DNA from: a virus
Strand: one strand, 5' to 3'
DNA: 22,030 bases
Virus record (IMG/VR): IMGVR_UViG_3300024518_001619
Coordinates: 1-22,030 of that record
Position numbers and translations under genes: made by a program. This document shows positions 3 to 18,974 of this stretch, one piece after another. How positions within the stretch are numbered: the first letter of the stretch is position 1; the number at the start of each line of letters is the position of its first letter. Below the pieces are notes generated by a model that saw only the letters and a program-made list of their open reading frames with translations, was not told the origin of the DNA and ran no database searches.

Positions 3-1226
3 TTTGCTTATAGACCTTATAGGATTGAATTAATTAAAGAGCTTCTTCCAATATATGAAAAATACAAAAAAGATAATAATAAATGTGATTACACAGATAT
101 GATTGAAGACTTTATAAAACAAACATATAATGAAAAAACTAAAAAAATGGAGGATGATGTAAGAGATCCAGACATTGATGCAGTCATTATAGATGAATGT
201 CAGGATAGTAATGTTCCTCAAACCAAAGCTATTGAAAAAATGGCCATCAATGTAAAAGAGGGTCATTATTATTTAGTGGGTGATGCAGATCAAACCTTAT
301 TTGAATACGCAGGATCAGATGCAGACAAGTACCACAAATTAGCGGCTCATCCTTATAAAGAATTAAGAGAAGGCTTACGATGTAGCGAAGCTATAAATAA
401 AAAATGCAAAGAAATTATTTTAGATATTTGGAATCATTATGGGTCTCATAGAGTATGGACACCAGCTAAGTATACTGAGAAACATAATATGGGCCATATA
501 GGGGAAGTTATTAAAGGCAATGGCTATTATTTAGCTAACTTCGAAGGTTCTAGCCATTTAGATATTTTATTAGATAAAATAAAAAATACTAATCAAACAT
601 TTTTATTTACCTATAGAGGAACTCCAGGAGATATTCGTTGTAAAAAATTCTTTGATTCCCATGGATTAGAGTATGCCCATGTTAGAAATTCAGCTCATGT
701 ATCTAAAAAAGAACTAAGAGCTCATCATCTATGGCCCGATTTTATAAGAGGTGTACCAATGAGCCGTACTCAGGTAAAACATTTCTGTGAGTATGCAGGA
801 AGTAAAGTTAAAGTTAAATTAAAAAAAGGAGAAGTATTAAATTTTGAGGAGTGGGTTAACAAAGATTACACAATTGATGAATTAATACAAAAAAAAGTTC
901 TTAAAGAGGACACTAAACAATATAACGATTTTGATTTAGTTAGGGTTCCTTCTAAAACTACAAAAGAAAAATTACTTTATATTAAAAAAGTTTTATCAAA
1001 AGGGTTTGATTTTGATAAAAAGATTCAAATTAAATATGGAAACATTCATGAAGTCAAGGGCCTAACATTTGATAATGTTATTGTAGATCATACTCTAACA
1101 CGAAGAGAAAAAAATTGGTTTACTCAATGCAGACTAGCATACACTGCCTACAGTAGAGGAGTCTTTGACTATTGGACTTTAGCACAAAGCCCAGGAAAAT
1201 ATAAAACAACATTAGGGAGAAGATAA
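3..1226 (+). CDS. SF1 (UvrD/Rep-like) DNA helicase, 5'-truncated
   Basis: The reading frame is open from the window edge, so the start and the Walker A motif lie upstream. What remains is the rest of an SF1A helicase. Visible are motif II DECQD (192-206), motif III with GDADQTLFEYAG shortly after, the LREGLRCSEAI block typical of motif IV, motif V HEVKGLTF near 1045, and motif VI CRLAYTAYSRG near 1128. Such enzymes use ATP to unwind DNA in replication, repair or recombination. The polymerase gene two genes downstream supports a role in phage replication. The motif order and spacing are normal, and the protein ends soon after motif VI, so it lacks the long C-terminal tail of bacterial UvrD. 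Some phage Dda- or RecD-like helicases share these motifs, so the exact subfamily is unsure. Confidence 0.88.
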   Translation, partial: FAYRPYRIELIKELLPIYEKYKKDNNKCDYTDMIEDFIKQTYNEKTKKMEDDVRDPDIDAVIIDECQDSNVPQTKAIEKMAINVKEGHYYLVGDADQTLFEYAGSDADKYHKLAAHPYKELREGLRCSEAINKKCKEIILDIWNHYGSHRVWTPAKYTEKHNMGHIGEVIKGNGYYLANFEGSSHLDILLDKIKNTNQTFLFTYRGTPGDIRCKKFFDSHGLEYAHVRNSAHVSKKELRAHHLWPDFIRGVPMSRTQVKHFCEYAGSKVKVKLKKGEVLNFEEWVNKDYTIDELIQKKVLKEDTKQYNDFDLVRVPSKTTKEKLLYIKKVLSKGFDFDKKIQIKYGNIHEVKGLTFDNVIVDHTLTRREKNWFTQCRLAYTAYSRGVFDYWTLAQSPGKYKTTLGRR

Positions 1227-3821: not shown

Positions 3822-4202
3822 ATGATCTTACTCGATACCTACTTACACCAAAGTAAAATCCACGGTATCGGAGTTTTTGCAAATATACCTATTAAAAAAG
3901 GTTCTCAAGTTTGTGATTATGATTCTCCACTAGCTAAAAAATTCGAGGTAAATTTTTCAAAAAAAGAGGTTTTGACTTATCCTAAAGTTATTTGTAATTT
4001 TTTATTAACTTATGGTTATGAGGAACCTCTTGGATCGGATAATTGGTGTGTTCAGTTAGATAATGAAAAATTTTTAAATCACTCTAATAATCCTAATCTT
4101 TCTCATGCGGGATTTGCTTTAAGAGATATTGACAAAGATGAAGAATTGATGTGTAATTATAAAACACTAGACAGTGATCATGAAAAATATAAATATATTT
4201 AA
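3822..4202 (+). CDS. SET-domain protein (putative protein-lysine methyltransferase)
   Basis: A 126-residue protein that is essentially a minimal SET domain. The start has the HGIGVFA block (residues 14-20) that shapes the S-adenosylmethionine pocket. The catalytic core FLNHSNNPNL follows at 84-93 (N86-H87-S88), and DEELMCNY ends with the expected catalytic Tyr113. SET domains transfer methyl groups from S-adenosylmethionine to lysine side chains. Phage members are known but their targets mostly are not. Pre-SET and post-SET zinc clusters are absent. It follows the polymerase and membrane-peptide genes. A second, divergent SET protein lies at 9383-9742. Confidence 0.85.
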   Translation: MILLDTYLHQSKIHGIGVFANIPIKKGSQVCDYDSPLAKKFEVNFSKKEVLTYPKVICNFLLTYGYEEPLGSDNWCVQLDNEKFLNHSNNPNLSHAGFALRDIDKDEELMCNYKTLDSDHEKYKYI

Positions 4203-7859: not shown

Positions 7860-8013
7860 GTTCGCTATGCTCAGCTCAACCGCTGGAATTGCTGCAAGTA
7901 ATAATATCTATGCCAAAGCTTATAGTGGTGTAGATTTTTTAACAATTATCAAAACGGAGAAAGATATTAAAACTCATATATATCATCGTTTACAGAAAGA
8001 AGATGAACGATAA
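7783..8013 (+). CDS. Small lipoprotein
   Basis: A 76-residue protein with a hydrophobic N-terminal segment (MMLITMIVILTSSC) ending in the lipobox LTSSC, so lipidation and anchoring in a host membrane are predicted. The mature part includes STAGIAASNNIYAKAYSGVDF and TEKDIKTHIYHRL, a pattern I recall from conserved phage and bacterial small lipoproteins of unknown role. AAGGAG at 7771-7776 fits ATG 7783. The signal has an unusually long polar lead (MYTNPRWFQ), so the ATG at 7816 could be used instead. It overlaps the next gene by 11 bases. Confidence 0.65.
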   Translation: MYTNPRWFQVMMLITMIVILTSSCTEFAMLSSTAGIAASNNIYAKAYSGVDFLTIIKTEKDIKTHIYHRLQKEDER

Positions 8014-8410
8014 TTTTAAACTAGACATTGCATACATAGCCGGAGTCTTTGATGGTAAAGGCAGTATTTATTACAAACAAATAATAGAAAAAAGAAAGAT
8101 CAAAAACCCTACTAAGGTTTGGAAAATAAGAATGGAAATATCTATGCCGGATAAAAATGTTATGGAATTAGTTCATGAGACTTTGGGTTGTGGCACATTA
8201 CGTGAAAAGAAAGCACCCGGGAAGAAAAAACAATATCGTTGGCAATGTTCCCACAGAGACGCTTTATATGTGTGTAAATTACTATGGCCTCATACCATTG
8301 TAAAATTACATAAGATAGAACAAGTTATAGATCACTATGAGCCGGATATACAGGATCTAGGAGATAATGTAGTGGACCTAGCATTAGAACGAGAGACTCG
8401 ACAATCATGA
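8003..8410 (+). CDS. LAGLIDADG-like protein, catalytic acid missing
   Basis: A 135-residue protein with one LAGLIDADG-type motif near the N-terminus, IAYIAGVFDGKGSIYY (residues 9-24). Single-motif members act as homodimers. In active enzymes the eighth motif position is Asp or Glu and binds the catalytic metal; here it is Lys19 (codon AAA). Basic segments (KRKIKNPTKVWKIR, KKAPGKKKQYRW) would contact DNA. The protein may be inactive as a nuclease but still bind DNA. The HNH nuclease gene follows two genes later in an unbroken chain of ATGA overlaps. Confidence 0.72.
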   Translation: MNDNFKLDIAYIAGVFDGKGSIYYKQIIEKRKIKNPTKVWKIRMEISMPDKNVMELVHETLGCGTLREKKAPGKKKQYRWQCSHRDALYVCKLLWPHTIVKLHKIEQVIDHYEPDIQDLGDNVVDLALERETRQS

Positions 8411-8490: not shown

Positions 8491-8681
8491 CCAATAAATA
8501 TTATATAAATTATTATTCCAAATCGGATGGTAAGAAGATTAAAAGACCTTACGATCCGCATGCTGAAAAGCAGCATGAATTCATCGCAGGCTCAGGTAAT
8601 CTTTGTAAAAGATATTGGGACGAAAGTAAGGATGGATTGCGCACGGCTAATGCACCATGGACCATTACGGTTAGGAAATGA
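8487..8681 (+). CDS. Small protein, paralog of 16678-16875
   Basis: A 64-residue protein. Its C-terminal half GNLCKRYWDESKDGLRTANA followed by PWTITVRK matches the protein at 16678-16875 (FYIYWD...GYRTATDSWTVRY), and the N-terminal YYSKSDGKKIKR matches YKSAKDKKTITR. The shared pattern Y-x-S ... K-K ... R ... YWD ... G-x-RTA ... W looks like one small fold duplicated in this genome. It overlaps both neighbours as ATGA. The role is unknown. Confidence 0.68.
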   Translation: MTNKYYINYYSKSDGKKIKRPYDPHAEKQHEFIAGSGNLCKRYWDESKDGLRTANAPWTITVRK

Positions 8682-9382
8682 GAAATAATACTTCAGTTGC
8701 GAGGCAGCTCAAAGAACAAATCCTTGTCCTAAGAAAAGATAATTTATCTTATAACAAAATTGCTCAAAAATTAAAATGTAGTAAGGGAACTATTAATTAT
8801 CATTTAACCGAAGGCGCAGCCGAGAAAATTAAATCCCGGGAGGGCAGACGTGAATGGAGAAAAATTTGGCGTTACGTATATGAAAAAGGAAAACCTAAGA
8901 AACCGTTTGTATATAAACAGTCTTTACTTAGAAAAATAGGTAGAGCATTTTTATATGGACCAACAAGAAGCAAAATAAGGAGAAATAGAATGGGATTAAA
9001 ACATAAAAATACAAAATTATTAGATTGTCTAAAGTTACTGTGGCCGGCGCTCACCAAAGACGGTATGACAAAAGAAAATGATGCAAAGCAAGCAGTTAAT
9101 CAATGGACGGGCGAGTTAGATTATTATGATGATGGCAAACCTATTATGACACCTATGGTCCGCTGCAAACTGTCTGATAAAGTTGTTGATGTAAAAGGGA
9201 ATGATATTCATACTGATCATATTAATGGTGACCGAACGGATAATGGTCCGGAAAATTTTTCTTTAGTACAAAGGGATTTTAATCACATGAAATCTGATGC
9301 TAAAAATTATAAAATGCTGTTTGAAAGAATAGAAACACTACGAAATACCTTGTTAAAATATAGACATGTTTGGGATGTATAA
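8678..9382 (+). CDS. HNH endonuclease with N-terminal helix-turn-helix
   Basis: A 234-residue protein. Residues about 14-43 (ILVLRKDNLSYNKIAQKLKC, then SKGTINYHL) form a helix-turn-helix like those of resolvases. The C-terminal half carries an HNH domain: TDHINGDRTDNGPENF, with H181, N189 and N193, then FNHMKS about ten residues later. HNH enzymes nick or cut DNA with one metal ion. Free-standing phage members are often homing endonucleases. Together with the LAGLIDADG-like gene just upstream, two different homing-nuclease families sit within 1.4 kb. The ATGA overlap at 8678 fixes the start. Confidence 0.85.
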   Translation: MRNNTSVARQLKEQILVLRKDNLSYNKIAQKLKCSKGTINYHLTEGAAEKIKSREGRREWRKIWRYVYEKGKPKKPFVYKQSLLRKIGRAFLYGPTRSKIRRNRMGLKHKNTKLLDCLKLLWPALTKDGMTKENDAKQAVNQWTGELDYYDDGKPIMTPMVRCKLSDKVVDVKGNDIHTDHINGDRTDNGPENFSLVQRDFNHMKSDAKNYKMLFERIETLRNTLLKYRHVWDV

Positions 9383-9742
9383 ATGATGAACGATAAAGAC
9401 ATAAAAGAATACCATGATCTAATAGAGCAGTTAGAGGCATATCGACCTCTGCCTTCAGGGATCACGGTTGCCGACTCAGGGATCGCGGGCCAGGGATTAT
9501 TCACAACACGCAGGTTAGTGATGGGAACGGCGCTTGGTATATCTCATTATAGAATTGATGGAGAGTACATTAGAACTCCACTTGGAGGATTTATTAATCA
9601 TGCTGAGACACCTAACTGTGAACGATCTCAAGTTAGAATCAGACCTGGATTTGATAGATGGAATATCATAGTTATTGAAGACATTGAAGAAGGCGATGAA
9701 TTAACATTAAAATATAAATTATATGACCCTAGCAAAGATTAA
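9383..9742 (+). CDS. SET-domain protein, second copy
   Basis: A 119-residue protein. After a short helical lead come SGIAGQGLFTTRRL (S-adenosylmethionine pocket), GGFINHAETPNCER (the NH of the NHS core, here NHA) and EDIEEGDELTLKYKLYD with the expected catalytic Tyr. It differs much from the SET protein at 3822-4202, so it is probably not a recent duplicate. The first Met is immediately followed by a second. Predicted activity is protein-lysine methylation with an unknown target. It starts right after the HNH stop. Confidence 0.82.
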   Translation: MMNDKDIKEYHDLIEQLEAYRPLPSGITVADSGIAGQGLFTTRRLVMGTALGISHYRIDGEYIRTPLGGFINHAETPNCERSQVRIRPGFDRWNIIVIEDIEEGDELTLKYKLYDPSKD

Positions 9743-11895: not shown

Positions 11896-12219
11896 ATGAA
11901 AAACACAACTCAAAGTATTATAATGCCACGAAAAACAAAAAGAAGATTAAGCTTAAGCCAAAGCGCCAGCGACGATATCCCTTATTCAAAGGTCAGAGTT
12001 GAATGGATGGATATTTTAAGTGATAGTGGTTGGGCTGATGACAAACAATTTACTAAAATGAAACTAGCCTTCCCTGTCAATGAAGGTTGGTTGTACACTA
12101 AAGATAAAAAGGCTGTTAAGCTTTTTGCTTCTTACGATCGGGATGAGGATGGCTCTTTGACTTTTGGGGATCGGACAATGATTCCTTTGGCTTGTGTGAA
12201 GAGGATTCAGAAACTTTAG
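11896..12219 (+). CDS. Small conserved phage protein
   Basis: A 107-residue protein. After a basic lead (PRKTKRRLSLSQSASDDIPY) comes KVRVEWMDILSDSGWADDKQ, then PVNEGWLYTKDKKAVKLFAS and GDRTMIPLACVKRIQ. The fold looks like a small beta-rich domain. I recall it from marine phages next to packaging genes, with no known function. Its last 104 bases are also the 3' end of the terminase small-subunit gene on the other strand. ATG 11923 is an alternative start. Confidence 0.7.
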   Translation: MKNTTQSIIMPRKTKRRLSLSQSASDDIPYSKVRVEWMDILSDSGWADDKQFTKMKLAFPVNEGWLYTKDKKAVKLFASYDRDEDGSLTFGDRTMIPLACVKRIQKL

Positions 12220-12703
12220 GTGCCTCAATTGATTCACCTTCAACAACCTTCGCATTCAATAACGGTTCGTAATCGGTTAGAATTTGTTTCATTTTGGCTT
12301 CTAGTTGTTCCTCTGTTAGCTCTTCTAGCTTTCCATGTTTTATTATTTTGCGGTCTATATACAGCCCTGCTGCTTTGCCTCGATTGGTTTCGGCGTTTAC
12401 TGCAGAAGAAAAAGATCCCTTCTTCAAAGCCAGATTTTTAATTCTATCTAGTTCTGCTATATGTTTTTCATAACTGACTTCAAATTTCTTAAGTCTTTCT
12501 TCTTTAAGTTCCCCAACAAACTTTGCAACAAGTGGTGACAGTCTTGGATTCATAAGCTCTGATCCTTCTTGTCTTGCCCGGTTATGACTGTAGCCAGCTA
12601 GCTTCGCTGCTTCCATCTGTGAGACAGGTCCTTCAGGTCCACCAAATACTATAAATTCGGCAAATCTCTTCTGCATCTCTGTTAATCTTTTATGAACTCC
12701 CAT
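12116..12703 (-). CDS. terS: Terminase small subunit
   Basis: A 195-residue protein on the minus strand. The N-terminal part LTEMQKRFAEFIVFGG..., then QMEAAKLAGYSHNRARQEGS and ELMNPRLSPLVAKF, is the helix-turn-helix of phage terminase small subunits (Terminase_2-like), which recognise the packaging site. The middle is helical, for oligomer formation. The tail (SESSSHKPKESLSDPQKSKS and more) is Ser/Lys-rich and is encoded opposite another gene. I chose ATG 12703 over the TTG at 12712. The large subunit lies 4.8 kb away on the opposite strand, an unusual arrangement. Confidence 0.8.
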   Translation of the reverse strand: MGVHKRLTEMQKRFAEFIVFGGPEGPVSQMEAAKLAGYSHNRARQEGSELMNPRLSPLVAKFVGELKEERLKKFEVSYEKHIAELDRIKNLALKKGSFSSAVNAETNRGKAAGLYIDRKIIKHGKLEELTEEQLEAKMKQILTDYEPLLNAKVVEGESIEAPKVSESSSHKPKESLSDPQKSKSHPHPDRKKQKA

Positions 12704-12705
12704 GG

Positions 12706-12734
12706 TTGACAATTTAAGGTAACTATCCTATAAA
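12706..12734 (+). promoter_or_regulatory. Sigma70-type promoter
   Basis: TTGACA at 12706-12711, 17-bp spacer, TATAAA at 12729-12734, preceded by ATCC. The ATG at 12741 is at the predicted transcription start. The -35 abuts the terS start on the other strand. Confidence 0.75.
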
Positions 12735-13657: not shown

Positions 13658-14035
13658 ATGGGTCCAGAGGCAAAATTATATCAAAAACTTCGTAAAAAAT
13701 CATCAGGAATTGTGTGGACCAGGCTTGAAAACCTTAGCTTACTTGGTACTCCTGATCTATTGGGCTATAATACTTTTGGGCACTTTTTCACAGTAGAGTT
13801 AAAAGTTACCCGAGGGTATAAACTCAAATTTTCTGCACACCAAATTGCATTCCATAAGACACATCCGAAGAATACTTTCATCATAGCCGAGAGCCTCGGT
13901 CCGAGGTCCTCGAAACTTATTCACATGTACCAAGGCTCACGAATCATGGAGCTTGTCGCTTGCGGCTTGAAGCTTGAAGCTTGCTGCTTGGGGCTTGAGG
14001 CTTGCAGCTTGGAGCTTAATTCGCTTGGTGCTTGA
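13658..14035 (+). CDS. VRR-NUC-like PD-(D/E)XK nuclease
   Basis: A 125-residue protein. GTPDLLGY gives D33, HFFTVELKVTRGYKLKFSAH gives E47-x-K49, and QIAFHKTH follows, which together are the PD-(D/E)XK core of VRR-NUC or phage Holliday-junction-resolvase-like proteins. About 85 residues are the domain. The last 28 (ELVACGLKLEACCLGLEACS and on) are encoded by the heptanucleotide repeat array, so the natural C-terminus may have been extended by repeat insertion. The start ATG 13658 lies 28 bases after the previous stop. Likely role: cutting branched DNA in recombination or packaging. Confidence 0.72.
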   Translation: MGPEAKLYQKLRKKSSGIVWTRLENLSLLGTPDLLGYNTFGHFFTVELKVTRGYKLKFSAHQIAFHKTHPKNTFIIAESLGPRSSKLIHMYQGSRIMELVACGLKLEACCLGLEACSLELNSLGA

Positions 14036-14112
14036 GGCTTGGAGCTTGGTGCTTGAAGCTTACGCTTCTCGGCCCGGAGGGCCGCGTAATATTTGGGGTG
14101 TTTGAATTCCAT
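13921..14112 (-). CDS. Repeat-encoded protein, doubtful
   Basis: A 63-residue frame on the minus strand, starting in a TAATG overlap with the gene before it. It begins MEFKHPKYYAALRAEKRKLQ, then becomes a repeat of PSSKPQA-like units from the heptanucleotide array, and ends with MIREPWYM. It overlaps the end of the nuclease gene antisense. The first 20 residues could be a real protein start; the rest is repeat. It is the last frame of the minus-strand operon. Confidence 0.4.
   Translation of the reverse strand: MEFKHPKYYAALRAEKRKLQAPSSKPQAPSELSSKLQASSPKQQASSFKPQATSSMIREPWYM
13951..14064. repeat. Heptanucleotide array GCTTGNN, 16 units
   Basis: Tandem GCTTGNN units run at 7-bp steps from 13951 to 14064, with one 9-bp unit at 14014 and a diverged last unit (GCTTACG). 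The last two bases vary (AA, CG, GG, GA, CA). The array covers the 3' end of the nuclease gene and the opposite frame. Two smaller arrays of the same unit lie at 14883 and 15371. Confidence 0.9.
14070..14084. repeat. GC-rich perfect hairpin
   Basis: CGGCCC (14070-14075), GGA, GGGCCG (14079-14084), at the end of the heptanucleotide array. There is no T tract on either side. It may slow transcription between the convergent units. Confidence 0.5.
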
Positions 14113-14856: not shown

Positions 14857-15045
14857 CTATTTAATTGTGTCTTTTTTGTGGCGCTTGCGGCTTGCAGCTT
14901 GCAGCTTATAGCCGTTGGCCCTGGCCCATGCATCATGCAGCTTGTGAACACGCTTATGATCTACCGGTGGCTCAGGCTTTTGTTTTCTTTTAGCTCGGGC
15001 TCGCTCTGCAGCGAGCCCGGTATTCCAATTAACAGTTTTATGCAT
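14857..15045 (-). CDS. Small basic protein with repeat in its 3' part
   Basis: A 62-residue Arg/Lys/Ala-rich protein (MHKTVNWNTGLAAERARAKR, then DHKRVHKLHDAWARANGYKL). The codons for YKLQAASRKRHK come from the small GCTTGNN array at 14883-14910. It overlaps the gene before it by eight bases and lies 18 bases from the gp88-like start. No family recognised. Confidence 0.5.
   Translation of the reverse strand: MHKTVNWNTGLAAERARAKRKQKPEPPVDHKRVHKLHDAWARANGYKLQAASRKRHKKDTIK
14883..14910. repeat. Heptanucleotide array GCTTGNN, 3-4 units
   Basis: GCTTGCG, GCTTGCA, GCTTGCA, GCTTATA in a row, the same unit as the array at 13951. It sits in the 3' part of a minus-strand gene. Confidence 0.8.
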
Positions 15046-15205: not shown

Positions 15206-15321
15206 CTTTTCTCCGCGTCCCATTGTCTTTGTCTCGCGGCACTGTCTTCTTGATCTTTTTTAATAAGACGCAGGATCTCTTCTATTGCATCCGCTATTCT
15301 TTTTAATTGTGCTGTATCCAT
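15202..15321 (-). CDS. 39-residue helical protein, first gene of minus-strand operon
   Basis: A charged, helical peptide starting MDTAQLKRIADAIEEILRLI. AAAGGA is well placed upstream, and the promoter at 15342-15370 lies just beyond. The stop overlaps the next start as ATGA. These signals make it a likely gene despite its size. It could be a small regulator or coiled-coil partner. Confidence 0.6.
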   Translation of the reverse strand: MDTAQLKRIADAIEEILRLIKKDQEDSAARQRQWDAEKR

Positions 15322-15341
15322 ATTTATTCCTTTCTAAGTTA

Positions 15342-15370
15342 ATCCTATACTATCCCGTAACCATTGTCAA
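15342..15370 (-). promoter_or_regulatory. Promoter of the minus-strand operon
   Basis: On the minus strand: TTGACA (15370-15365), 17-bp spacer, TAGGAT (15347-15342). The stretch GGGATAGTATAGGATTA resembles GGGATAGTGTAGGATAA of the promoter at 16944. Confidence 0.65.
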
Positions 15371-15390
15371 GCTTGAAGCTTGAAGCTTAA
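15371..15390. repeat. Heptanucleotide array GCTTGNN, 2-3 units
   Basis: GCTTGAA, GCTTGAA, GCTTAA, directly next to the -35 of the minus-strand promoter and just before the palindrome block. Same unit as at 13951 and 14883. Confidence 0.7.
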
Positions 15391-15393
15391 TTC

Positions 15394-15462
15394 CTGATCC
15401 CTGATCCATCACCGATAGTCACGCTGTGCACCCGTGACAGTAAGTAATGGATCAGGGATCAG
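15394..15462. repeat. Two-stem palindrome, 16-bp outer arms
   Basis: Outer arms CTGATCCCTGATCCAT (15394-15409) and its exact complement (15447-15462). An inner perfect stem GTCACG (15418-15423) and CGTGAC (15433-15438) encloses a 9-base loop. The whole could fold as one long structured RNA or cruciform. Confidence 0.85.
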
Positions 15463-15521
15463 CCATCTCGTGGCAAGCGGATTTCTCCGGCTGGACATTC
15501 CAACGCCATACGACACGACAC

Positions 15522-15585
15522 CTGATCCCTGATCCATCGGATAACATCGGGATCAAACCAATAGCTCCAATAGATCAGGGATCAG
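15522..15585. repeat. Second palindrome with the same arm sequence
   Basis: The left arm at 15522-15537 is identical to the arm at 15394-15409. The right arm GATCAGGGATCAG (15573-15585) pairs over 13 bp, with one mismatch before two more pairs. This makes four copies of the element in alternating direction within 192 bp. Confidence 0.82.
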
Positions 15586-15625
15586 TTCTGGTCGCTTAGC
15601 GCCATAGAAAGTATGAAAGACTAGG

Positions 15626-15684
15626 CTCGACAACCAGAAGTTGTCCCGAGACAGTTATTATAAAGGCTCATATCTCAGGAGCCT
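15626..15684. repeat. Two further hairpins
   Basis: CTCGACAAC (15626-15634) pairs with GTTGT and CGAG (15640-15650, two-base bulge). AGGCTC (15664-15669) pairs with GAGCCT (15679-15684). They extend the structured non-coding block 15371-15741, in which I see no gene. Confidence 0.6.
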
Positions 15685-15741
15685 ATGATCATTTATAACA
15701 TAGGAGATATATTAAGCAACAACTTTATTTAAATAAACTTC

Positions 15742-15770
15742 TTGACATTAGTAGGATTATCCTATACACT
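15742..15770 (+). promoter_or_regulatory. Possible promoter
   Basis: TTGACA at 15742-15747 with TACACT at 15765-15770 (17-bp spacer), or TATACA at 15763 (15-bp spacer). The element ATCCTATA (15759-15766) is shared with other promoters of the window. Confidence 0.55.
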
Positions 15771-15839
15771 TGGACGGTGGCTGGGGATGGTGGTTAGTAG
15801 TATAAACAATGCAACCACAGGTTGTGCGCATTTTTGCGC

Positions 15840-15868
15840 TTGACATGAGACAGTATTTATGGGATTAT
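15840..15868 (+). promoter_or_regulatory. Promoter for gene 15887
   Basis: TTGACA at 15840-15845, 17-bp spacer, GATTAT at 15863-15868, followed by CCTAT. Upstream are two small hairpins, CAACC-ACA-GGTTG and GCGCA-TTTT-TGCGC. The gene's ribosome binding site lies about ten bases downstream. Confidence 0.5.
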
Positions 15869-15886
15869 CCTATTAGAAAGGAATAT

Positions 15887-16435
15887 ATGCCAAAAATGAC
15901 AAAATACCAATTAGAGCATTTTAGAGACAAAGTTAAGAGAAATCTAAACCCTCTAATTGAAGAACAAGAATTGTTAGTTAAACAGTTCACAACTGAAGCA
16001 ACTAACAAAGCAAGTAAGAAACTTGCAATCAAAATAGGCGCACAAAGGATCATTGATGCTTTACAAGATGCTGAAGAAAATCTGACAAAGGCGCAGACTT
16101 CAGCACAAAGTTTCTTTGAGAAAAAAGCAACTACTAAAGAGATGAAGGAGGACTTGAGTTATAAACTGTCTCGTGATGATGATGATGAGAAAATAACAGT
16201 ATCAGATTGTGAAGATCAAATTAGAACCTGGGCTAAAACACTTGCTGAAAGGGAAATAGAAAAAAGACCTGAAGGCAAGCAGCTTGCTAAATTGAAGGGG
16301 ATCAAGCGTTCAGCGTTGGATAGTATCATGGAAAGTGAAGCGCCAGCAACTTTGATTGAAACTTTAAACAAGCACATGACAAAGTATCTAGGTGTATCAT
16401 GGCATGAAGAACCAAAAGCAATAGAGCATAATTAA
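15887..16435 (+). CDS. Helical protein of unknown function
   Basis: A 182-residue, highly charged, helical protein (YQLEHFRDKVKRNLNPLIEE, LQDAEENLTKAQTSAQSFFE). A second half with SRDDDDEKITVSDCEDQIRT and a C-terminal helical domain follows. I recognise no family. ATG 15887 is chosen because AAAGGAA lies just upstream. An ATG at 15809 in the same frame would add 26 residues that cover the hairpins and promoter, which is unlikely. It lies behind the palindrome block and in front of the operator-like promoter. Confidence 0.7.
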   Translation: MPKMTKYQLEHFRDKVKRNLNPLIEEQELLVKQFTTEATNKASKKLAIKIGAQRIIDALQDAEENLTKAQTSAQSFFEKKATTKEMKEDLSYKLSRDDDDEKITVSDCEDQIRTWAKTLAEREIEKRPEGKQLAKLKGIKRSALDSIMESEAPATLIETLNKHMTKYLGVSWHEEPKAIEHN

Positions 16436-17507: not shown

Positions 17508-18974
17508 ATGAATTTAAATACTGTTGATATTAGTAAGCTTCCTGCTGACGTTAGAAAACAATTCCTCCAACTCCAAGTAATGTATGCTGAAAAAAGAATT
17601 CAAAATAAAGCTAAAGATGATTTTTTAAGCTTTGTCAAGTGTGTTTGGCCCGAGTTCATTGAAGGCGCTCATCACAGACACATTGCACAAAAATTTAATG
17701 ATCTGGCCAATAAAAAAATAAATAGATTAATTGTCAACATGCCACCAAGGCATACAAAATCAGAATTTGCGTCTTATTTACTTCCATCGTGGATGGTGGG
17801 CCGTAATCCGAAACTCAAAATCATTCAAGTAACGCACACAGGAGAATTAGCCATCAGATTTGGTCGAAAAGCCAAGCACTTAATTGATTCAGAAGAGTAC
17901 GGAAAAATTTTTAAAACTAGATTACAAGAAGATTCGCAAGCCGCTGGGAGGTGGGAAACAGCACAAGGCGGCGAGTATTTCGCTGCAGGTGTCGGTGGAG
18001 CAATCACTGGACGGGGTGCTGACTTATTAATTATTGATGATCCGCACTCGGAGCAAGATGCGATGTCAGCTAATGCATTTGAGAATTGTTATGAATGGTA
18101 CACTTCTGGTCCAAGACAAAGACTTCAACCAGGCGGACAGATTGTACTCGTTATGACTAGATGGTCAAAAAAGGATTTAACAGGAATTTTAATGAAGAAT
18201 CAGAAAGAAGTGAAGGGTGATCAATGGGAAGTGGTAGAATTTCCGGCGCTTATGGACCACGGACCAGTGTGGCCTGAGTATTGGAACAAAGAAGAGCTAG
18301 AAAAAGTTAAAACAACCCTTCCAGTTGGTAAATGGAATGCACAGTGGATGCAAAGACCAACTTCTGAAGAAGGAGCGCTTATAAAGCGTGAATGGTGGCG
18401 TAAATGGGAAGACGACAGCCCACCAGACATACATTATATAATTCAAAGCTATGACACTGCTTTTATGAAAAAAGAAACGGCCGATTACTCTGCTATTACG
18501 ACTTGGGGAGTGTTTTATCCTGAAGAAGGTAAACCAGCGAACTTAATTTTGCTAGATTGTGTAAAAGAGCGTTATGAGTTTCCAGAACTTCGTCGTGTTG
18601 CCTTAGACCAGTACAAATATTGGAAACCAGAGATGGTCATCATCGAAGCGAAGGCATCTGGACTGCCATTGACGTATGAGCTAAGACAAATGGATATTCC
18701 AGTTCAGACCTTTACACCGAGCAAAGGAAATGATAAGCATGTCAGAGTAAACACATGTGCACCTCTTTTTGAATCTGGAATGATTTGGGCACCCGACCAG
18801 AAATTTTCAGAAGAGGTAATTGAGGAATGTGCAGCATTCCCGCACGGTGATCATGACGATCTAGTCGATTCTATGACTATGGCTGTGATGCGCTTCAGGC
18901 AGGGCGGATTTATCCAGCATCCTGAAGATTATCTTGACGAAAAACAACCGCCTAGGAAGATGGAATATTACTAA
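17508..18974 (+). CDS. terL: Terminase large subunit
   Basis: A 488-residue DNA-packaging motor and nuclease. The ATPase domain has the variant P-loop NMPPRHTKSE (K84-S85) and Walker B LLIIDDP (D177-D178), preceded by GRGAD. The C-terminal RNase H-like nuclease has D316 in SYDTAF, E380 in IIEAKASG and D450-D451 in GDHDDLVDS. Length is normal. The enzyme cuts the genome concatemer and pumps DNA into the capsid through the portal. ATG 17508 has no clear ribosome binding site. The stop overlaps the next gene as TAATG. The small subunit is at 12116-12703 on the other strand. Confidence 0.96.
   Translation: MNLNTVDISKLPADVRKQFLQLQVMYAEKRIQNKAKDDFLSFVKCVWPEFIEGAHHRHIAQKFNDLANKKINRLIVNMPPRHTKSEFASYLLPSWMVGRNPKLKIIQVTHTGELAIRFGRKAKHLIDSEEYGKIFKTRLQEDSQAAGRWETAQGGEYFAAGVGGAITGRGADLLIIDDPHSEQDAMSANAFENCYEWYTSGPRQRLQPGGQIVLVMTRWSKKDLTGILMKNQKEVKGDQWEVVEFPALMDHGPVWPEYWNKEELEKVKTTLPVGKWNAQWMQRPTSEEGALIKREWWRKWEDDSPPDIHYIIQSYDTAFMKKETADYSAITTWGVFYPEEGKPANLILLDCVKERYEFPELRRVALDQYKYWKPEMVIIEAKASGLPLTYELRQMDIPVQTFTPSKGNDKHVRVNTCAPLFESGMIWAPDQKFSEEVIEECAAFPHGDHDDLVDSMTMAVMRFRQGGFIQHPEDYLDEKQPPRKMEYY

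Follow-up and report, generated by a model that had tools for sequence, protein, structure and literature searches.

The DNA stretch analysed here (the window), a virus record of 22,030 bp, has Pelagibacter phage HTVC027P as a relative. The small terminase gene (terS) lies on the minus strand at 12116-12712 and the large terminase gene (terL) on the plus strand at 17508-18974. Between them are a GP88-family gene (PF17338; 14236-14838, minus strand; Pfam E 1e-29) and a block of palindromic repeats at 15371-15741, from which the GP88 gene is downstream on the minus strand. By blastn, HTVC027P (MN698241.1) and the window are 70.7% identical, with 41% of the query covered, and HTVC027P carries the same array of palindromes in the same gene order. 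Shared terminase genes and synteny identify the window as part of the genome of an HTVC027P-type (SAR11) phage. In the surface ocean SAR11 bacteria are dominant, and phages of the HTVC023P/027P type are among their most abundant viruses. The GP88 protein of the window has cysteine clusters and is frequent in marine phages. Elsewhere in the window, plus-strand ORFs at 3822-4202 and 9383-9742 appear SET-domain-like by eye, and those at 8003-8410 and 8678-9382 resemble LAGLIDADG and HNH homing endonucleases.

As reported in a preliminary description of this DNA, the block contains four copies of CTGATCCCTGATCCAT in alternating direction. They lie at 15394-15409 (+), 15447-15462 (-), 15522-15537 (+), and 15570-15585 (-), the last with one mismatch. 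At up to three mismatches there are six matches to this 16-mer in the whole window, whereas shuffled sequences average 0.22 and never exceed 2. The copies form two hairpins of 20 bp each on the minus strand, G.U pairs counted, and the second stem noted earlier inside the first hairpin was recovered as a predicted GUCACG/CGUGAC helix. The block is free of genes, as had been stated (no ORF of at least 60 aa was found in 15371-15741), and is indeed bounded by divergent promoter-like sites: TTGACA-17-TAGGAT for the downstream minus-strand genes (15370-15342, minus strand; layout as in HTVC027P) and TTGACA-17-TACACT for the plus-strand genes (15742-15770, plus strand). Dyads of the TAGGATTATCCTA type at 15335-15350, 15747-15770, and 15855-15873 overlap promoter-like sites, and relatives have an inverted repeat, TTGACAATCCTATTGTCAAG, at divergent promoters; these are probably a shared operator.

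The predicted structured RNA region, which we call the array, spans 15390-15740 on the minus strand, the strand being assigned by tests on relatives. Its minimum free energy is -148.8 kcal/mol (z = -9.3 against shuffles), compared with -113.8 kcal/mol (z = -5.9) for the plus strand. Nearest its low-coordinate end lies D element 1 (15394-15462), in which arms at 15394-15409 and 15447-15462 form a 20-bp stem around a cassette loop. Within this loop, an inner hairpin is predicted at 15418-15438, and its 9-nt apical loop GGUGCACAG holds the palindrome GUGCAC (15426-15431). A spacer module containing TGGCTGGACATTCCAACGCC (15463-15521) separates the two D elements and recurs in relatives: loci L098 and L091 also have it as a spacer, and in L113 it serves as a D loop. 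D element 2 (15522-15585) has arms at 15522-15537 and 15570-15585, and its innermost arm base is altered on one side, which is the single mismatch to the 16-mer; its loop class is also found in L025, L065, and L106. It is followed by a P element (15586-15639) with arms TTCTGG.. and ACAACCAGAA and a variable cap, and then by GTTGTCCC at 15640-15647. A 5' domain of the RNA at 15638-15725 was recognized by sequence inspection and is less well supported than the D and P elements. Its closing helix may be AAGTTGT (15638-15644) with ACAACTT (15719-15725), as seen by inspection; the minimum-energy fold draws the domain differently. The domain also holds a GGCTC/GAGCC hairpin (15665-15683) whose sequence is common to L029, L031, and L245. 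By eye, TATCTC/GAGATA gives it the appearance of a pseudoknot; few relatives carry the domain.

Distribution of the D element

Scanning IMG/VR for the 16-mer gave at least 120 stretches; exact-pattern scans favour canonical copies, and the relatives are drawn from one phage group and are not independent. Some of the lone 16-mer matches come from isolate-derived records of about 40 kb; these are probably due to chance and were set aside. The repeats, which the preliminary description had suggested looking for beyond the window, are present in related phages, where the D element consists of a left arm CTGATCCCAGATCCAT, a variable loop of 22-68 nt, and a right arm ATGGATCAGGGATCAG. The arms pair except for an A.A mismatch (plus-strand reading) that is kept in 194 of the 216 unique elements among the matches listed. 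The window has T at this position, so its arms are perfect.

All 148 D elements in the terL-bearing loci among the matches listed are found upstream of terL at a distance of no more than 4.5 kb. Wherever a locus includes terL, the element is positioned between terS and terL, its orientation there is fixed, and no D elements were found elsewhere in 1.37 Mb of terL-bearing loci. Where loci were picked by terL alone and had enough upstream sequence, 19 of 26 carried a D element, and no recognizable one was found in the other seven. Among 84,980 bacterial and archaeal species genomes, the arm pair occurred in one, on a scaffold of 6.5 kb from a single-cell assembly of Flavobacterium (L251). Because this scaffold also encodes a GP88 relative (71% identical), it is probably a phage contig. 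Hundreds of phages that infect abundant marine bacteria carry the predicted array, and its genomic position is shared among them.

RNA structure and strand

Compensatory changes in relatives, proposed earlier as a check on a possible RNA, were found beyond column-shuffled controls. Across 111 non-redundant D elements, pairs 11 and 14-19 show such changes beyond every column shuffle; for instance, pair 14 has 17 double changes (shuffle mean 1.8, maximum 7) and pair 15 has 31 (mean 5.1, maximum 12). The mismatch, U.U in the minus-strand reading, is kept in 101 of these 111 elements. In 44 unique relatives, the arms of the P element read on the plus strand contain 39 A.C or C.A oppositions against a single G.T, that is, wobble on the minus strand only. 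As A.C on the plus strand corresponds to G.U on the minus strand and only one strand shows this tolerance, the pattern points to RNA rather than cruciform DNA. The minimum free energy is lower on the minus strand in 187 of 215 elements (p 3e-29), and the loops taken alone fold better on this strand in 160 cases vs 54. A plus-strand RNA was ruled out by the wobble and energy tests. Some relatives have a hairpin followed by a T run on the plus strand, which at first resembled plus-strand terminators.

A minus-strand promoter (TTGACA-N16-18-TATxxx) is found beyond the array in 83 of 122 loci, compared with 6.4% of random 400-nt pieces, at a median distance of 111 nt. The window itself has no good minus-strand promoter by the array, the nearest candidates being weak. 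The Rfam family Flavobacterium-1 (RF02976) exceeds its cut-off, on the strand inferred for the RNA, in HTVC027P (L200) and in L230, L209, L211, L212, L223, L234, L238, L240, and L251; we had inferred the strand before seeing the Rfam result, so this match is an independent check. In HTVC027P it lies at L200:3007-3127 and scores 90.2 bits against a cut-off of 58.9; a covariance-model search of the window gave no RF02976 match at or above 58.9 bits. ATG-initiated ORFs of at least 40 aa occur on the RNA strand in 30 of 99 predicted RNA regions of relatives. Taken from sequence comparison, the block almost certainly corresponds to a structured RNA on the minus strand. Non-coding RNA is thus the one of the three readings in the preliminary description with strong support, which comes from the compensatory changes, the strand-specific wobbles, the minus-strand promoters of relatives, and the Rfam motif on the same strand of related arrays.

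Further modules and exchange of loops

In relatives, the P module has arms UUCUGGUUGU and ACAACCAGAA following GGGACAAC, with a variable cap. This module, two others (S3 and S6), and one P cap class were found by inspection and then aligned, and double changes are present at 10 of 19 consensus-fold pairs in S6, 6 of 18 in the P cap class, and 7 of 22 in S3. In L214 and L157, an S3-type inner part is nested in an S6 outer part. Scans for S6 alone and P alone led to new loci in which, among the matches listed, a D element was also present in 78 of 94 and 63 of 77 cases, respectively. All of them lay upstream of terL with a shared orientation, save one P match. Three separately scanned module families share place and orientation upstream of terL.

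The D1 loop of the window is identical to that of L039 over 41 of 41 nt, even though the GP88 proteins of the two share 50% identity and the flanks are no more alike than background; it differs at one position from that of L070, with unrelated flanks. We found 18 pairs with identical loops and GP88 identities of 47-78%, for most of which the flanks are near background (0.5). Identical loops beside a neighbouring gene of about 50% identity and unrelated flanks show, at the level of sequence, that loops move between phages as cassettes. The exchange of caps would probably proceed via recombination at the conserved arms.

Palindromic loops and possible self-association

In the S6 module, a 6-nt palindrome occupies a fixed position in 58 of the 78 unique inner parts (mean of shuffles 10.1, maximum 20). 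Among non-redundant inner parts it is present in 30 of 43 (mean 5.5, maximum 13), in the form of ten different hexamers including GGATCC, GATATC, GAGCTC, and GGTACC. A class of D loops marked by CTCTTCAC behaves similarly, with a palindrome in 28 of 34 (mean 9.9, maximum 17). Taking all D loops together the excess is modest (103 vs 69, maximum 92), and within predicted apical loops D palindromes are not clearly enriched (4 of 48 vs 1.8 expected, maximum 5). A loop that changes in sequence and is still self-complementary fits a predicted pairing of two RNA copies, and since the apical D loops are not clearly enriched, the argument for a dimer rests on S6, the CTCTTCAC class of D, and the modest overall excess. 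On balance these data lean towards homotypic contacts between loops. The dimerisation initiation site (DIS) of HIV-1 is a hairpin whose 9-nt loop holds a 6-nt palindrome. The predicted GGUGCACAG loop of the window D1 has the same layout, which is an analogy only and implies no homology.

Probable transcription of the array

Arrays of the relatives are commonly followed on the minus strand by tandem heptamers, (CAAGCNN)n. In the window, such a repeat at 15369-15388 (minus strand) immediately precedes the -35 box of the next minus-strand promoter. In relatives, TTGAC follows the heptamers within 12 nt in 84 of 116 (control 1.6%), and a heptamer-marked promoter lies between the array and the downstream genes in 93 of 116 loci. 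The span from promoter to heptamer, taken as RNA length, has a median of 441 nt (10-90%: 271-608). No clear terminator was found between the array and the next promoter. Given that the downstream genes usually have their own promoter, a separate RNA is favoured over a leader, and heptamers directly before the -35 box mean that these genes need not depend on the array promoter. The array is probably its own transcription unit. Further minus-strand heptamers occur at window 13950-14061 and 14883-14907 and at 2650-2690 and 2970-2993 of L200, and some extend into coding sequence, as at the end of ORF 13658-14035. They are possibly activator or UP-element-like sites.

In HTVC027P, gp34 and gp33 (GP88), which are located behind the array, make up a separate class of expression, at 6-9 h (PMC12753301); intergenic or non-coding RNA is not mentioned in that study. 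The same work annotates HTVC027P gp30 (L200 1022-1198, minus strand) as ArfA, for which the Pfam match is 20.2 bits against a curated cut-off of 25.5.

Proposed function and alternative explanations

We take the block to be the window's version of a structured, modular non-coding RNA that occurs in HTVC027P-type pelagiphages and may act in trans via self-pairing loops, a reading to which we give a probability of roughly 0.6. In relatives, the RNA would be transcribed from the minus strand, starting at a promoter about 100 nt beyond the array, and would be roughly 270-600 nt long. Its hairpin domains (D, P, S3, and S6, with Flavobacterium-1 added in some phages) would follow one another in a chain, with arms and junctions conserved in structure and caps swapped between phages. 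Most likely a stand-alone, trans-acting molecule, it could pair with other copies through the palindromic loops, and the paired copies would build an assembly of RNA, or of RNA and protein, that resembles GOLLD and ROOL in type. A role of such an assembly in scaffolding or sequestration is a tentative suggestion. More speculative, and on present evidence doubtful, is the idea that the loops are identity tags: with hairpin caps swapped at the arms, palindromic loops would let like RNAs assemble with like, giving a phage-specific RNA assembly during infection. If true, each pelagiphage would build its own RNA assembly from a swapped-cap, self-associating RNA. Cells infected with HTVC027P have been reported without detectable rRNA signal (PMC11066056), and a link of this to the array is speculative.

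The array could instead act in cis as a leader of the minus-strand operon, which includes gp34 and gp88/gp33 among its genes; it could, for instance, serve in antitermination or in stability. In phage HK022, the put RNA is a hairpin RNA encoded just past a phage promoter, and the array likewise lies upstream of genes on the same strand, shortly past a conserved promoter; the separate expression class of gp33 and gp34 (PMC12753301) would also suit a leader. Unlike put RNA, however, the array has downstream genes mostly with their own promoter: judged from sequence, a promoter-like site intervenes in 93 of 116 loci where a leader calls for an uninterrupted shared transcript. The size and modularity of the array are also far above those of known leaders, and arrays persist where no gp88 match was found, which together make this an unlikely explanation. 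A partnership with the GP88 protein was rejected. The gp88 gene is a frequent but non-obligatory neighbour (73 of 120 loci among the first-scan matches listed); arrays occur without a gp88 match in the terS-terL intervals of L027/L130, L058, L169, and L065, and the GP88 phages HTVC033P, CRP-4, CRP-171, and CRP-603, outside the group, lacked a D element in the stretch read. We regard as rather improbable a transcript processed into several small RNAs, each hairpin module acting alone, for instance as a protein decoy. The modules are autonomous hairpins in any order and number, one type serves as spacer or inside a D loop (L113), and RF02976 is classed as an sRNA in Rfam; yet D, P, and S6 are kept together at one locus in fixed orientation, and the arms and junctions of one module abut those of another.

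Two further possibilities concern DNA rather than a transcript. The perfect palindromes of the window and their placement between terS and terL could suit a cruciform operator, a replication origin, or a packaging (pac) site. A preference for one strand in wobble and folding, seen across hundreds of elements, is not expected for double-stranded DNA, and the variation in loop content and copy number is greater than suits a pac site, so that a DNA-level site is very improbable and the cruciform regulator of the preliminary description is not upheld. That description had also raised a mobile palindromic element. Terminal inverted repeats flanking variable cores, which move between phages, would agree with an element of the REP/BIME or MITE kind, and REP/BIME and BOX elements resemble the array in their alternating palindromes and modular make-up. 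Those elements are dispersed in genomes, whereas the array is confined to one locus (148 of 148 copies among the matches listed, in one orientation), no insertion into genes was seen, and bacterial genomes nearly lack it. Mobility as a dispersed repeat is hardly credible; what survives of the claim is that hairpin loops are exchanged between phages.

Relation to known RNA families

Large phage RNAs of the ornate kind have been described before, and Rfam already lists one domain of related arrays. This domain, Flavobacterium-1, lies close to the 3' end of the RNA and shares its strand. The family covers about 121 nt; the D, P, S3, and S6 modules, the cassette exchange, and the phage locus fall outside it. 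On the Flavobacterium single-cell scaffold L251 it matches at 652-771 (+), on the same 6.5 kb as a D element and GP88, and the bacterial name of the family may, we infer, derive from a phage contig like this one. Like GOLLD and ROOL, the array would be a phage-encoded, complex, multi-domain RNA (PMC12286853), and in GOLLD and OLE intermolecular loops covary as palindromes (PMC12286853). The covarying palindromic loops in two module classes of the array are compatible with a homo-oligomeric, RNA-only complex of the GOLLD/ROOL type. In contrast to GOLLD and ROOL, no universal core was found in the array and its caps are exchanged between phages; the former are found near tRNA islands, the latter near terminase genes. 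No GOLLD or ROOL match at the Rfam gathering threshold was found in the window and 27 loci, nor any at E up to 1 in window 15300-15900, L070, L052, L119, L010, L013, and L200:2900-3500. Rfam matches to mir-3923, mir-351, rox1, and mir-7445 are to animal families, far below cut-off, and were taken as chance.

The arm sequences were not found in the literature searched. No non-coding RNA was described in the pelagiphage literature searched, which did not extend to the RF02976 source paper and gave one match concerning Actinomarinales. The array appears to be a new large phage RNA that is kept across this phage group and had escaped notice, except for a single fragment that Rfam lists under Flavobacterium, and we found no report of such cassette-like exchange of RNA domains. 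The set of arrays is a natural test set for palindromic loop-loop assembly, and with HTVC027P in culture and strand-specific infection RNA-seq publicly available (PRJNA1253180), the array is directly testable. In L103, a Flavobacterium-1 match at 9025-9142 (-) lies several kb from the D elements of the same contig and is possibly a second RNA locus.
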